Positions 2,938 to 16,840 of a stretch of DNA of 39,408 nt are shown here, piece by piece. The stretch is taken from NCBI GenBank assembly GCA_015063625.1, contig SVTT01000015.1:1-39408 (forward strand). Reading direction: 5' to 3'. Under the pieces are notes generated by a model. It was not told the DNA's origin and did no database searches. It saw only the letters and a program-made list of their open reading frames with translations. Within the stretch, counting starts at the first letter, position 1, and each line of letters starts with the position of its first letter. The translations under genes and the position numbers were made by a program. The stretch is from Oscillospiraceae bacterium. Lineage in GTDB: Bacteria; Bacillota; Clostridia; Oscillospirales; CAG-272.

Positions 2938-3087
2938 TCGCCAAAAAACGGGTCGTCGAAGGCGCCGACCCCTACCGGGTTTGATCACATCCAAACCTGC
3001 CGCGAGGACGTCCAAAAACGGGTCGTCGAGGGCGCCGACCCCTACCGAGGTTTGATCATGCCCGAACCTGTCGCGAGGACATCCATG

Positions 3088-3246
3088 AACGGGTCGTCGA
3101 GGGCGCCGCCCCCCCCTCGTTGTCATCCTGAGCGAAGGGCGAAGCCCGCAGTCGAACCCTCAGGGCGATGCGGAGCATCGGGATCTGCGAGGGGATGACG
3201 GATAAAAGGGCGTGCCGCGAGGATGTCGACAAACGGGTCGTCGAGG
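3088..3246 (+). repeat. Long direct repeat, copy A (composite element)
   Basis: This segment is almost identical to 3482-3638, differing by length changes in a C-run and a G-run. It consists of one 70-bp-type unit, a stem-loop element bounded by GTCATCC (3122-3128) and GGATGAC (3193-3199), and the start of the next unit. Inside are small hairpins such as GGGCgaaGCCC and ATGCggaGCAT. The GTCATCCTGAGCG word resembles a repeat found in many bacterial genomes. Confidence 0.85.
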
Positions 3247-3481
3247 CGCCGACCCCTACCGCGTTTGATCATACCCGAACATGCCGCGAGGTGAGGGCGA
3301 TCGGGTGCACGCGCGAGCCTCGTTTTCGCCCCGAACGACCGACGGTCGCCCCCTGTGTTCGCCGCGACCCTTGGTTCGATTGACCAATGTTCAAATTATA
3401 TCGTACCCGGTAGGGGCTGGCGCCCACGACAGCCCGTGATAAACAAATGACATCTATGAATGTGCCGCAAAGATGCCGACA

Positions 3482-3638
3482 AACGGGTCGTCGAGGGCGC
3501 CGCCCCCCCTCGTTGTCATCCTGAGCGAAGGGCGAAGCCCGCAGTCGAACCCTCAGGGCGATGCGGAGCATCGGGATCTGCGAGGGGATGACGGATAAAA
3601 GGGCGTGCCGCGAGGATGTCGACAAACGGGTCGTCGAG
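3482..3638 (+). repeat. Long direct repeat, copy B (composite element)
   Basis: Second copy of the composite element at 3088-3246, with the same outer stem GTCATCC (3515-3521) and GGATGAC (3586-3592). Near identity of two copies under 400 bp apart suggests recent duplication or gene conversion. Confidence 0.85.
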
Positions 3639-3693
3639 GGCGCCGACCCTTACCGGAATCAGGGCTTTCGGCGGCAAGTGCGCTTATAAAGTC

Positions 3694-14243: not shown

Positions 14244-14392
14244 TCCTGCAAAAGCAAAGCCACTCGGCTTAGCGTTGTGTTCTGAAAGACATAAACGCAC
14301 TAACGTGTGATGTTCTTAGCGGAGAATTTAAAAAATACCGCTAAGCGCGAGCATCGCATTTGACCGGTCAAATGCATTTGGGCTAAGCCCAA

Positions 14393-14640
14393 GCCCTTGC
14401 AACGACAGAAAGAGATAACAAATCGGTTCGTAGCCGAAATGTTATCTCTTTTTTGTTTGTGAAGTTTTCGCCGACGCGAAAGTGAAGTTGCTTTGCAGTG
14501 AAGTTTGCGCTACGCACAAGTGAAGTTAAGTTTGCCCACTTCGCCATAGGCGAAGCTTCACTATCCGCAGGATAACTTCACTTGCCCATAGGGCAAACTT
14601 AGTTTTAGCGTGATACTCCGTTAAGAGTATCACGCTAACG
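14393..14640 (+). repeat. Structured hairpin array 1 (AGTGAAGTT type)
   Basis: After CCCTT-NN-AACGACAGAA comes a terminator-like hairpin. Then copies of AGTGAAGTT (14481, 14497, 14519; a GTGAAGTT at 14459) are separated by tiny perfect hairpins: TTCGCcgacGCGAA, GCtttGC and TGCGctaCGCA. The second half holds inverted words (CTTCACT, AACTTCACT), hairpins CTTCGCCataGGCGAAG and TTGCCCataGGGCAA, and an outer pair AAGTTTGCCC (14528-14537)/GGGCAAACTT (14591-14600). It ends with a 14-bp stem on a CGTTAA loop (14605-14638). Array 2 at 16563-16826 has the same layout. No coding potential is seen. It is not a CRISPR: units are too short and unevenly spaced. Confidence 0.85.
14409..14457 (+). terminator. 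Intrinsic terminator of the tetR-aro operon
   Basis: AAAGAGATAACA (14409-14420) pairs with TGTTATCTCTTT (14440-14451) around a small inner hairpin, followed by a T-rich run. It is also the first hairpin of array 1. Confidence 0.75.
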
Positions 14641-14950
14641 GGTGGCTTCTTCTTTCTTCTTTTTAACGACCGCGTGATGGCGTTGCACACGACAAAAGAA
14701 GACATTTCCAATCATTTTTCTTAATTTTCCAATTTTACAATATATATATTCCATTTTTATTACCCGATAATTTCAATGTTTTTTCGACAACACTCCTGTT
14801 TTCCCGTTTGTTGCAAAAAAACACCAAATCTTTTAGCTTTGTGTCCCTACATACACTGCAAGGAAGCGTTACAGCAATGATACCGCAATTCCATAGCAAA
14901 GCATGTGCTTGAGAGCTTCTTTTATGAAATAAAAAAACAACATCCTCAAA
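14641..14950. other. AT-rich gap without a recognisable gene
   Basis: About 300 bp of AT-rich sequence lie between hairpin array 1 and the ddh terminator. I see no frame with a ribosome binding site, no further repeat and no clear promoter; short TATATATAT runs occur near 14742-14752. Confidence 0.5.
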
Positions 14951-14952
14951 AA

Positions 14953-14985
14953 AACCGCCGTGATGCGCGGCGCATCACGGCGGTT
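14953..14985 (-). terminator. Intrinsic terminator of ddh
   Basis: A nearly perfect palindrome beginning AACCGCCGTGATGC (at least a 14-bp stem), read on the minus strand, is followed by seven T residues about 10 bp after the ddh stop codon. Confidence 0.9.
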
Positions 14986-14995
14986 CAACGTTTTA

Positions 14996-15982
14996 TTAAA
15001 GCAGAGCCTTGCGAAGCTCCTCGGGTGACATTGGCGAAAGCAGCGCAGGTGGGACGTCAAGCACGGTTTTACAGCCAACGGCACCGTCTGCTGCAAGACG
15101 ATAGGCAGCACGGGCATACGCCACCAGCACCGATGCGGTAAACTCGGGGTTGGAATCGAGCTTCAGGCGATATTCGATCAGATGGCGGTTTTCACCGTTA
15201 AGCCCCGTTCTTCCGCTTCGGATCACGAAGCCTCCGTGCGGAATACCGCTATGGTTGCGCGCGAGCTCCTCCTTGGTGATAAAATGCACCGTGGTATCGT
15301 AGTCGGCAAAATAGTTGGGCATGGACTTGATCTCCTGCTCGATGGCGGCAAGGTCGGCGCCCTCCTTTGCTACGACAAAGCATTCGCGAAGGTGCTTTTC
15401 GCGCGTGGTCAGCGTGGGCTCCTCGCCGCTTCGCACGGCATCGAGCGCCGCCTCGACGGGAATGGTATACTGCTTGCCGTCAAGCACGCCCTTTACACGA
15501 CGAATGGCATCCGAATGACCCTGGCTGACCCCCTTGCCCCAGAAGGTATAGTCCCTGCCGTCGGGCAGGACCGCACCCGCATAAAGGCGGTTGAGCGAGA
15601 AAAGACCGGGATCCCATCCCACCGAAATGATGCCAACCTTTCCTGCGGCACGGGCGGCGGCGTCCACTCTGTCGTAATGCTCGGGGATACGGGCATGGGT
15701 ATCAAAGCTGTCCACCACGTGGAAATGCTCTGCCAGGGCAGGTGTCTGCACAGGCAGATCGGTGGCAGAGCCTCCGCAAAGGATCATGACATCAATGCGT
15801 CCCACAAACTCGACGACGCGGTCGGCATGATATACAGGCACCCCCGAAATAACGGGATCTACCGTGGCAGGATCGCGACGCGTGAACACTGCCACCGTTT
15901 CAAGATCCTCGCATGCGCGAAGCGCGAGAAGCACGCCGCGTCCCAGATTACCGTAACCGAAAACACCAACTCGAATACTCAT
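14996..15982 (-). CDS. ddh: meso-diaminopimelate D-dehydrogenase
   Basis: Catalyses the NADPH-dependent reductive amination of L-2-amino-6-oxopimelate to meso-diaminopimelate, the one-step shortcut to lysine and peptidoglycan precursor. The start at MSIRVGVFGYGN (328 residues) follows AGAAGG at 6 bases; the longer frame from 16096 has no such site and crosses the promoter. The N-terminal Rossmann motif is GVFGYGNLGRG. Family motifs follow: LCGGSATD, VDSFDTHARIPEHY, ISVGWDPGLFSLNR, TFWGKGVSQGHSDAIRR and the C-terminal NPEFTASVLVAYARAAYR. It is a single gene with its own promoter and terminator, flanked on both sides by repeat arrays. Confidence 0.94.
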   Translation of the reverse strand: MSIRVGVFGYGNLGRGVLLALRACEDLETVAVFTRRDPATVDPVISGVPVYHADRVVEFVGRIDVMILCGGSATDLPVQTPALAEHFHVVDSFDTHARIPEHYDRVDAAARAAGKVGIISVGWDPGLFSLNRLYAGAVLPDGRDYTFWGKGVSQGHSDAIRRVKGVLDGKQYTIPVEAALDAVRSGEEPTLTTREKHLRECFVVAKEGADLAAIEQEIKSMPNYFADYDTTVHFITKEELARNHSGIPHGGFVIRSGRTGLNGENRHLIEYRLKLDSNPEFTASVLVAYARAAYRLAADGAVGCKTVLDVPPALLSPMSPEELRKALL

Positions 15983-16018
15983 AAATAACCTTCTTTCAGG
16001 GAACTTTTTAACGGTAAA

Positions 16019-16047
16019 ATTATAGCACATTTTATGTATACCGTCAA
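16019..16047 (-). promoter_or_regulatory. Sigma-70 type promoter for ddh
   Basis: TTGACG and TATAAT are separated by 17 bp on the minus strand, about 35 bp upstream of the ddh start codon. Confidence 0.75.
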
Positions 16048-16151
16048 CAAGGTACGCATATTTTTTGCAGTAAGACTGAAAAAAAGGGGCGGACACTGAG
16101 GGGGGCTGTTCTTAGCGGAGAATTTGAAAGCTCCACTCAGTGCGAGCATTG

Positions 16152-16207
16152 GAGAGCGAATAGAACACGGTTTCAAGGGGCAGATTTCTGCCCATGCTGC
16201 CGCAAAA
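16152..16207 (+). repeat. Dispersed 56-bp intergenic repeat, copy 2
   Basis: This copy matches 2882-2937 apart from three substitutions and again precedes a block of 69-71 bp repeats. Just to its left, the words GTTCTTAGCGGAGAATTT (from about 16108) also occur at about 14312, left of array 1, so these intergenic regions share several modules. Confidence 0.85.
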
Positions 16208-16343
16208 AGCCTTGTAAATTCCGCATTTCACGGCGGCTTTTGCGTTGCCTTGGCAAAGATCTGCTCCCTTGAAGCTCGGGTGATATCATACATGGTAGGG
16301 GCTGGCGCCCACGACAGCCCGTGACAAACAGAAGGCACCCAAG

Positions 16344-16530
16344 AACGGGTCGTCGAGGGCGCCGACCCCTACCGGTTTGATTGTATTCGAACATGCCGCG
16401 AGGATGCCGACAAACGGGTCGTCGAGGGCGCCGACCCCTACCGGTTTGATTGTATCCGAACATGCCGCGAGGATGCCGGCAAACGGGTCGTCGAAGGCGC
16501 CGACCCCTACCGGAATCAGCGCTTTCGGGC
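16344..16530 (+). repeat. Tandem 69-bp repeats, three copies, same family as 2947-3655
   Basis: Units beginning AACGGGTCGTCG start at 16344, 16413 and 16482, an exact 69-bp period. Each has the GGGTCG/CGACCC hairpin core, CCCCTACCG, a TTTGATTGTAT stretch and CATGCCGCGAGGATGCC. An inverted, diverged core (GTAGGGGCTGGCGCCCACGA) lies at about 16294-16313. The interval 16208-16290 between the 56-bp repeat and this block holds no gene I can support. Confidence 0.85.
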
Positions 16531-16562
16531 GGGTTCAGATCGCTCCCTCTTGCCTAAGCAAA

Positions 16563-16826
16563 AACCCTTATAACGACAGAAGAGAGAACAAATCGAAATG
16601 TTCTCTCTTTTCTGTTAGTGATGTTTTTGCTATCGCAAAAGTGATGTTATTCGCTTCGCTCATCACGATGTTGCTCGCCAAGACTCGCAGTGATGTGATG
16701 TTTGCCCACTGTGCCGAAGGCACAACATCATTCACGCAGTGAACATCACAAGGCGAAGCCGACATCACTTGCCCGCAAGGGCAAACATCGTTTCGCGTGA
16801 TACTCCGTTAAGAGTATCACGCGAAG
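16563..16826 (+). repeat. Structured hairpin array 2 (AGTGATGTT type)
   Basis: It has the same order of parts as array 1: CCCTT-NN-AACGACAGAA, a leading hairpin (AAGAGAGAACA 16580-16590 with TGTTCTCTCTT 16599-16609), repeated AGTGATGTT words separated by small hairpins such as TTTGCtatcGCAAA and GTGCCgaaGGCAC, then inverted words (AACATCA, ACATCACTT) and TTGCCCgcaaGGGCAA. It ends with TTCGCGTGATACTC on a CGTTAA loop (16792-16825). No plus-strand gene precedes it, so it is not simply an operon terminator; the feo operon ends just beyond it on the opposite strand. Confidence 0.85.
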
Positions 16827-16840
16827 GTCCGCCCCAAGGT

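Follow-up and report, generated by a model that had tools for sequence, protein, structure and literature searches.

In our judgement, two hairpin arrays in this Oscillospiraceae DNA are somewhat likelier than otherwise to be gene-less copies of a mobile cassette built in two layers, with an outer layer of RAYT type and an inner layer consisting of an array that accompanies genes of the '23S rRNA IVP' family (PF05635). The window, that is, the whole stretch of 39,408 nucleotides analysed, contains both arrays, and inspection of its sequence confirmed that they are real and paralogous and bore out the sequence, order of parts and coordinates (14393-14640 and 16563-16826) given in a preliminary description of this DNA.

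Arrays, ends and insertion sites

The arrays form the inner part of a longer element that extends beyond those coordinates, has the ends GTGATGTTCTTAGCGGAGAA ... CTCCGTTAAGAG.ATCACGC, and lies within the loop of a terminator. Copy 2 is interrupted by ~400 bp of other repeats. The parts of both elements are as follows.

14257..14266 (no strand): host terminator interrupted by element 1, left arm (AAGCCACTCG), pairing with 14639-14648 with one G-U
14267..14306 (+): 40-nt stretch separating the terminator arm from the left end; by eye, it resembles an end hairpin that has decayed (TTAGCG...CACTAA)
14307..14326 (+): left end of element 1, GTGATGTTCTTAGCGGAGAA, a match to the end pattern
14394..14410 (+): conserved anchor of element 1, CCCTT-NN-AACGACAGAA, in full CCCTTGCAACGACAGAA
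14409..14451 (+): leader hairpin of element 1 (inverted-repeat search, folding, covariation), arms GAGATAACA 14412-14420 and TGTTATCTC 14440-14448
14459..14600 (+): word array 1, GTGAAGTT exact at 14459, 14482, 14498 and 14520; inverted copies exact at 14574, partial at 14556
14533..14605 (-): match of array 1 to Gut-1 (RF01706), E 9.9e-6, at 40.0 bits against a 50-bit cut-off
14605..14638 (+): final hairpin, at the right end of element 1; 14-bp perfect arms and loop CGTTAA
14639..14648 (no strand): right arm of the host terminator at element 1, then a T-rich run
16086..16094 (no strand): host terminator interrupted by element 2, left arm (GGGGCGGAC), with an A run before it
16103..16122 (+): left end of element 2, GGGCTGTTCTTAGCGGAGAA, two mismatches to the pattern
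16150..16552 (no strand): other repeats inside element 2, 69-bp tandem repeats and inverted copies; boundaries approximate, by eye
16565..16581 (+): conserved anchor of element 2, CCCTTATAACGACAGAA
16582..16607 (+): leader hairpin of element 2, arms GAGAGAACA 16582-16590 and TGTTCTCTC 16599-16607
16618..16789 (+): word array 2, GTGATGTT exact at 16618, 16641 and 16695; inverted copies exact at 16742, partial at 16724 and 16784
16720..16793 (-): match of array 2 to Gut-1 (RF01706), E 1e-4, at 36.0 bits against a 50-bit cut-off
16792..16825 (+): final hairpin, at the right end of element 2; 14-bp perfect arms
16827..16835 (no strand): right arm of the host terminator at element 2 (GTCCGCCCC)

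The repeated word does differ between the arrays, as had been proposed, with four exact forward copies of GTGAAGTT in array 1 and three of GTGATGTT in array 2; each array has one exact inverted copy, but the other inverted copies are partial. Both arrays fold far more strongly than dinucleotide shuffles (z -8.8 and -9.3), none of 200 shuffles equalling either. In a hand-picked set of 17 leader hairpins, drawn from this genome and its relatives, pairing holds in 95.8% of cells, and 7 of 16 pairs have changed on both sides. Of 500 shuffles, 5 reached that number and none matched the covariation score. The earlier claim of compensation in every major helix holds in that the named helices change in step, but some sister copies are incomplete, with mismatched leader stems in L003 and L009 and TTCGCG opposite CGCTA in the final stem of L007.

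The family is repeated, with 35 blastn pieces in its own 1.76-Mb genome, a few of which are a hairpin matching its own reverse. The left-end pattern, allowing up to two mismatches, is found in 29 of 59 related genomes, compared with none of the 59 for the reversed control. As to the terminal inverted repeats of a MITE, the left end GTGATGTCCTTAgCGGA is an imperfect likeness of the right hairpin GTGATGTCCTTAaCGGA read as its reverse complement. We examined the flanks of the 37 left ends with a recognisable right hairpin at most 470 nt away, skipping reverse readings of right hairpins, and saw exact complementary arms of at least 9 nt in 23 of these insertions, compared with 36 of 1332 when flanks were swapped. 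Of the window copies, the first belongs to these 37, where its additional 40 nt hold its score down to 6; the second does not. At rnpB, 16 relatives compared over the first 200 nt past the gene are without the element borne by L008, although that copy sits in a second hairpin absent from the relatives, so that the exact empty hairpin was not seen. No target-site duplication was recognised in the flanks by eye, no excision was seen, and blastn found no match for array 1 in the phage collection or for array 2 in the plasmid collection.

Relatives' elements also bear genes. One with the same left end carries a NUDIX gene (L236), and two with the same ends (L305 and L289) carry the gene for RAYT, a REP-type HUH transposase, as fragments or short ORFs only; the L305 ORF scores 51 bits against NF047646 REP_Tyr_transpos, for which the cut-off is 80. 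RAYT is matched in 26 of the 59 genomes and its count is correlated with that of left ends (rho 0.57), a correlation that falls short of significance inside the genus (rho 0.21, p 0.35). The window's own assembly (93.7% complete) gave neither a PF01797 nor a RAYT match, so nothing is visible there that would mobilise its copies now. Of the structured RNA, DNA cruciform and non-autonomous mobile element originally offered, the last fits best, given the many copies, their shared ends, the insertion in terminator loops, the relatives that bear genes and the variability of sites, albeit with no movement observed.

Relation to Gut-1 and to PF05635 genes

The preliminary description had found no named family that fits, which is too strong. 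Both window copies align over the full 77-position model of Gut-1, in opposite orientation, at 40.0 and 36.0 bits, which is below the curated cut-off of 50 bits; in a scan of 19 sister loci, three from the same genome (L008 at 55.7, L006 at 53.3 and L005 at 50.4 bits) and two from relatives (L039 at 55.7 and L033 at 54.5 bits) exceed it, the others falling below. Copies without covariation, or a match to a known transposon or Rfam family, had been named as what would overturn the original reading; the copies do covary, yet an Rfam relative exists and the ends are common to RAYT-bearing elements. PMC2864571 places Gut-1 with the likely noncoding RNAs and enters it as 'Human gut only', whereas here it is linked to PF05635 and matched in 41 of the 59 relatives' genomes, above cut-off in 35; one of 14 control genomes, E. 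coli, has a match below cut-off.

It is unlikely that the fold itself is the functional product, with the arrays acting as a discrete non-coding RNA of the structured kind under which Gut-1 was filed. The strong fold, the covarying leader stem and the similarity to Gut-1 are what such an RNA would show, as are the hairpins kept in the spacers between words, where a stem of at least 5 is present in 90 of 206 compared with 16 of 206 after shuffling. However, the words within an array are nearly alike and shift in concert, something that base pairing by itself would not demand, and Gut-1 spans only one half of a symmetrical array, both halves being matched on opposite strands at several loci. In addition, 11 of the 59 genomes hold at least 20 Gut-1 copies, and at several loci a promoter-like TTGACA/TATAAT, recognised by eye, lies between the array and the PF05635 gene, which places the array outside the leader of that gene.

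Arrays stand directly upstream of PF05635 genes, which encode four-helix-bundle proteins. From 106 matches we used 104, omitting two partial pieces, and 97 of these had at least 300 nt upstream. A word total of at least 6 was reached in 47 of the 97 upstream regions, compared with 5 of 1149 windows taken at random, 2 of 265 upstream regions of other ORFs and 2 of 97 regions downstream of PF05635; the control stretches (n=20) include L193, in which a type-I element lies, and thus contain one true array or more. The remaining 50 fell below the chosen threshold, some with direct word repeats only. Of 80 loci in named MAGs, the 73 with 300 nt or more upstream were scored and seven were not; 40 of the 73 reach the same word total (35 of 68 without five that overlap the first set). 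A Gut-1 match (E < 1) lies near 12 of 30 PF05635 loci versus none of 10 PF01797 loci. Copy numbers of Gut-1 and PF05635 are correlated over the 59 genomes (rho 0.82), both inside the genus (0.80) and outside it (0.81), the exceptions being about five (five to six) of 19 PF05635-free genomes that carry Gut-1 and 4 of 40 PF05635 genomes that do not.

In the window's own genome, PF05635 has four matches, on contigs C2 (two), C5 and C22. The contig of the window has none, so no such gene lies directly downstream of its arrays; the arrays of the two intact PF05635 genes elsewhere in the genome use GTGATGTT and GTGAAGTT, which are both of the window's words. By eye, a locus with the gene (L104) and one without it (L023) have the array and the sequence beyond the gene in common, and in one relative (G013) an array stands beside a different gene.

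An array could also be the repeated operator, in DNA or RNA, of the PF05635 gene, or a barrier to transcription at the 3' ends of tRNA and other genes, its dispersal being a side effect of the RAYT cassette, but we consider this doubtful. Arrays sit immediately 5' of the gene and in many cases closely follow the terminator of a tRNA, tmRNA or other gene, which would suit such a role, as would the agreement of word with protein subfamily described below. Nevertheless, Gut-1 far exceeds PF05635 over the 59 genomes (540 versus 106 matches), and the two rise together beyond what an operator explains.

The word and the protein subfamily

Protein pairs with 40-60% identity use the same word in 2% of cases, and those with 80% or more in 82-94%; none of 2000 permutations gave a match as strong (70 rows, each with at least 250 nt upstream, a protein of at least 95 aa and a word score of at least 5). 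Linked inheritance alone would bring some such agreement. In 10 of 14 pairs from different genomes, compared at a protein identity of 75% or above with equal numbers of spacers (at least four), the words are identical while the spacers average 68% identity; one of the four 'different word' pairs is the same word on the other strand. Since words stay identical while spacer hairpins drift, replacement of the whole word is better explained by the subfamily of a partner PF05635 protein than by selection on one large RNA fold. The words of two of these subfamilies are GTGATGTT and ATGAATTG. Of the 24 array loci examined in the window's genome, two have words that none of the PF05635 genes seen in it uses (GCGATAT in L011 and GTTATGA in L014); among relatives, the words of gene-less arrays match by eye a PF05635 gene of the same genome in some, for example G003, G009, G027 and G082, and do not in others, such as G004 (which has no PF05635 hit), G007, G013 and G017.

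Rather less likely again is a purely selfish family of hairpin repeats that owes its spread to RAYT alone, with PF05635 as no more than frequent cargo and words kept alike by hairpin copying errors (concerted evolution). The RAYT-linked ends and the occurrence of half-compensated copies agree with this account, but Gut-1 follows RAYT in number much less (rho 0.34) than PF05635, arrays adjacent to PF05635 have, by eye, surroundings other than type-I ends, and words are preserved exactly despite the drift of their spacers. As drivers of the arrays we rejected a Y1 transposase (PF01797, absent from the window's genome, with no Gut-1 match at 10 PF01797 loci and rho 0.16) and a reverse transcriptase or diversity-generating retroelement (no RVT_1 in the genome; Gut-1 versus RVT_1, rho -0.04).

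A proposed two-layer cassette compared with known systems

In the two-layer cassette that we favour, the hairpin ends would define an outer unit of REP/RAYT (HUH Y1 transposase) type, mobilised by RAYT, that inserts in the loops of intrinsic terminators and can bear assorted genes. The word-hairpin array inside it, with Gut-1 as one half, would be the cis partner of the PF05635 proteins, and words would change en bloc because each must match its protein subfamily. An oligomeric protein would bind and read the repeated word of 7-9 bases, with spacer hairpins keeping words apart, or exposed in the folded form, and three to four direct plus three to four inverted words may offer a symmetrical platform that aids excision, integration or retention of the cassette. 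Our inference is that the protein would recognise the array as a cis-acting site, and that the two copies in the window are derivatives lacking the gene, within cassettes of RAYT type.

Non-autonomous elements of REP/RAYT and IS200/IS605 type share the hairpin ends, and RAYT fragments occur inside relatives' elements with the same ends; unlike them, the window family uses terminator loops and bears large word arrays and genes, in a genome without detected RAYT. Intervening sequences of 23S rRNA occupy hairpin loops of the rRNA, and those with a PF05635/TIGR02436 (S23, IVP) gene share the protein family, whereas here the gene follows terminators of tRNA and other genes and has a word array upstream. 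Diversity-generating retroelements have a hairpin near their target and, in Avd, a protein like PF05635, but RVT_1 is unmatched in the window's genome and in 44 of the 59. Integron gene cassettes are likewise small, with varied genes and structured ends; here, however, insertion is at terminators and 3' ends. The PF05635 domain is termed functionally uncharacterized in PMC11270868, its resemblance to Avd is given in PMC10053308, and '23S rRNA IVP' is named in a figure legend on CRISPR adaptation modules in PMC10910872. No description of PF05635-linked word arrays was found in the titles and abstract openings of the published open-access papers searched.

It is possible, though we put it forward tentatively, that PF05635 proteins and word-hairpin arrays make up an unrecognised two-part mobile or recombination system, in which a subfamily word present about eight times in a folded array is read by the protein and the array is the cis site of small cassettes, with or without the PF05635 gene, in hairpin loops and the 3' ends of genes. 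Gut-1 would then be a half site and the intervening sequences of 23S rRNA a special case, and the residues invariant among 15 of the proteins (Q35, S42, N46, E49, D58, K62, E69, E72 and W76), whose closest solved chain is 2rld, could be catalytic. If binding follows the words, a common small gene family would gain a function and a high-copy class of repeats in these genomes would gain an explanation.

Two arrays within longer elements

The preliminary description had placed two paralogous arrays of words and hairpins at 14393-14640 (array 1) and 16563-16826 (array 2), with compensatory changes in every major helix. Sequence inspection confirmed both arrays in the window at these positions, and their leader stems (of the hairpin after the CCCTT anchor), repeated words of 7-9 bases and final stems are all altered in step. 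Folding is far below that of shuffled sequence in both (z -8.8 and -9.3). Across 17 leader hairpins, hand-picked from the source genome and related genomes, 95.8% of cells are paired against 83.6% when shuffled, and 25 cells changed on both sides against a shuffled mean of 5.5. Pairing of the leader stem is kept across copies, although some copies are imperfectly compensated.

Array 1 used as query against the source genome gave 35 matching pieces, a few of which are hairpins matching their own reverse. The oriented copies share a left module, 5' of the start originally assigned, that runs from GTGATGT(T/C)CTTAGCGGAGAA through a palindrome around GCATTTGAC..GTCAAATGC and then GGGCTAAGCCC to the leader CCCTT..AACGACAGAA. 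Because of this shared left end, the arrays are the inner parts of longer elements, with the following extents in the window:

14307-14638, element 1
16103-16825, element 2, in two parts separated by other repeats of about 400 bp
14257-14266/14639-14648, complementary arms bracketing element 1, flanked externally by an A or T run
16086-16094/16827-16835, complementary arms bracketing element 2, flanked externally by an A or T run

Of the 59 comparison genomes, 29 contain the left-end pattern with at most two mismatches, and none contains the reversed pattern used as a control. Element 2 is interrupted at 16294-16550 by 69-bp repeats, three in tandem (AACGGGTCGTCGAGGGCGCCGACCCCTACCGG...) and one inverted, and their words are also present at about 2961-3645. 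An inverted repeat with perfect 16-bp arms and a 1-nt loop (14953-14985) lies just past the 3' end of a minus-strand ORF (14996-16096) and is probably its terminator.

The element is multi-copy, and its copies lie within terminators. Among 37 insertions with a recognizable right end, exact complementarity over at least 9 nt exists between the two flanks in 23 of 37 cognate pairs, compared with 36 of 1332 swapped pairs. The copy at locus L008 is located behind rnpB; in 16 relatives, the first 200 nt after rnpB contain a terminator-like hairpin, no such element, and no counterpart of the second hairpin that houses the L008 copy.

Gut-1, PF05635 and the word

At a permissive threshold, the orphan RNA family Gut-1 (RF01706; cut-off 50 bits) matches the minus strand of array 1 (40.0 bits, E 9.9e-6) and of array 2 (36.0 bits, E 1e-4). 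In the 19 sister loci scanned, matches exceed the cut-off at L008, L006 and L005 of the source genome and at L039 and L033 of relatives, and the others fall below it. Gut-1 is one half of a symmetrical array, as several loci have matches on opposite strands inside a single array. A 2010 listing (PMC2864571) places Gut-1 among likely noncoding RNAs as "Human gut only", whereas here it matches 41 of the 59 relatives' genomes, above cut-off in 35 and with up to 50 matches; one of 14 control genomes matched, below cut-off.

Because a four-helix-bundle gene lies just 3' of two Gut-1 loci, linkage to PF05635, the "23S rRNA IVP" family, was tested. PF05635 was found in 40 of the 59 genomes, and Gut-1 is present in 36 of these 40 and in 5 of the 19 lacking it. 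Without formal phylogenetic correction, Gut-1 copy number correlates with PF05635 at rho 0.82 over the 59 genomes (0.80 inside the genus, 0.81 outside), and with Y1 transposases (PF01797), reverse transcriptases (RVT_1) and REP-associated tyrosine transposases (RAYTs) at 0.16, -0.04 and 0.34, respectively. A Gut-1 match (E <1) lies near 12 of 30 PF05635 loci, compared with none of 10 PF01797 loci.

Inverted word arrays, defined as a 7-mer present at least twice per orientation and at least six times in total, lie directly 5' of PF05635 in 47 of 97 cases, compared with 5 of 1149 random windows, 2 of 265 upstreams of other ORFs, and just 2 of 97 PF05635 downstreams. Totals of at least seven occur in 24 of the 97 upstreams and in none of either control; none of 970 shuffles attained a total of five. 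In named MAGs, mostly ruminant-gut Clostridia, totals of at least six and seven occur at 40 and 24 of 73 PF05635 loci (35 and 23 of 68 once five loci overlapping the first set are removed). By eye, an Acholeplasmataceae locus (L375) has word-and-hairpin repeats (automatic score just 4), and none were seen at loci from Lentisphaerae (L367) and Arcicella (L403). Another PF05635 subfamily (L064-L066, L082, L084, L087) has direct word repeats just 5', mostly without hairpins, such as GCAGAATGCAGAAT and ATTATTCATT.

Word classes derived from DNA alone track PF05635 protein subfamilies. The same word is used in 2% of protein pairs at 40-60% identity, 82% at 80-90% and 94% above, figures nearly unchanged for pairs from different genera only; the correlation is 0.33, and none of 2000 permutations reached it (largest 0.15). 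Linked inheritance would explain part of this match. However, the word is identical in 10 of 14 compared pairs whose spacer hairpins average only 68% identity (range 0.49-0.91), which counts against inheritance alone. The spacers retain the ability to form hairpins (stem of at least 5 in 90 of 206, compared with 16 of 206 shuffled).

The two intact PF05635 genes of the source genome have arrays with the words GTGATGTT (C2:41336) and GTGAAGTT (C5:416), the same two words as in the window, and one or the other is used by 20 of 24 array loci examined in that genome. By eye, its loci L104, with a PF05635 gene, and L023, without, agree in the array and also in sequence past the gene, and look like full and gene-less copies of one element.

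Insertion contexts and outer ends

An array directly follows the tRNA-Cys terminator in two of nine genus contexts examined, accompanied by a PF05635 gene in genome G000 and by another word and another gene in G013. Both contexts contain one more array, this one after a stray tRNA 3'-end copy. The remaining seven contexts, two of which end after 73 and 93 nt, contain other sequence, in some of them including fragments of the tRNA end, inverted or direct. This pattern would be the residue expected of repeated insertion at one site. Between two tRNA pieces, the source genome contains a PF05635 gene, an MBOAT gene and two ORFs, one of 68 aa and HTH-like, the other of 343 aa; no integrase-like gene was seen there, with Pfam search covering the MBOAT gene. 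In other genomes, L414, L417, L419 and L429 have tRNA 3'-end pieces, inverted or direct, within 200 bp downstream of tRNA-Cys, which is likely an insertion hotspot for several small elements. A hairpin precedes the arrays at L023, L085, L088, L093 and L104; its left arm encodes a conserved HVE[ST][VI]VCL, presumably the C-terminus of an RNA methyltransferase, and its right arm is altered to match in each. L088 and L104 apparently have just the fragment.

The contents of relatives' elements sharing the left end differ, and many contain word arrays. One (L236) has a NUDIX gene and 16-nt terminator arms, another (L235) a gene and an array by eye, and a third (L289) a P-loop gene (AAA_33 24.1 bits, below the cut-off of 27) and a RAYT-like ORF. 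The L305 element has a RAYT fragment and another gene; its ORF matches REP-associated tyrosine transposase (NF047646; E 1.2e-13), below the curated cut-off, and no Pfam family. Left-end and RAYT counts correlate over the 59 genomes (rho 0.57), but inside the genus the correlation is not significant (rho 0.21, p 0.35), and a search of the source assembly gave no RAYT or PF01797 match. Taken together, the outer ends are RAYT-like in kind, and present-day mobility of the window copies is hypothetical.

By eye, a second class of elements (L005, L006, L016, L021, L026, L027) has ends like GGCGACCTGCGATAAAGCAGGTCGCC and contains word arrays, whole or in part. L021, too, sits within a terminator-like hairpin. 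At L018, from about 1736, the leader is broken by an insertion-sequence-like inverted-repeat end (TGCACC..AAAAGT..).

A possible reader of the word

Nine polar or aromatic residues are invariant in 15 PF05635 proteins (A1): Q35, S42, N46, E49, D58, K62, E69, E72 and W76. This would be unusual for a mere scaffold. The closest solved chain to IVP is 2rld, an entry with five chains. The "23S rRNA IVP" protein is named in a figure legend of PMC10910872, and a passage of PMC11270868 terms the domain functionally uncharacterized. The open-access literature searched yielded no report of the array-PF05635 pairing. All the parts have named relatives, in Gut-1, RAYT elements and PF05635.

Pairing alone needs no likeness among the words of one array, and the economical way to explain that likeness is therefore a reader specific for the sequence. 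Of the steps in the mechanism proposed here, the analysis showed the copies with their ends and sites, the relation to Gut-1, the linkage to PF05635 and the match between word and protein. The word array would be bound by an IVP oligomer, perhaps as double-stranded DNA, single-stranded DNA or RNA, with the hairpins holding the words spaced or exposed. The array may then be a cis-acting site for cassette handling, possibly in movement rather than regulation, and the window copies would be gene-less derivatives inside RAYT-type cassettes that a RAYT might mobilise.
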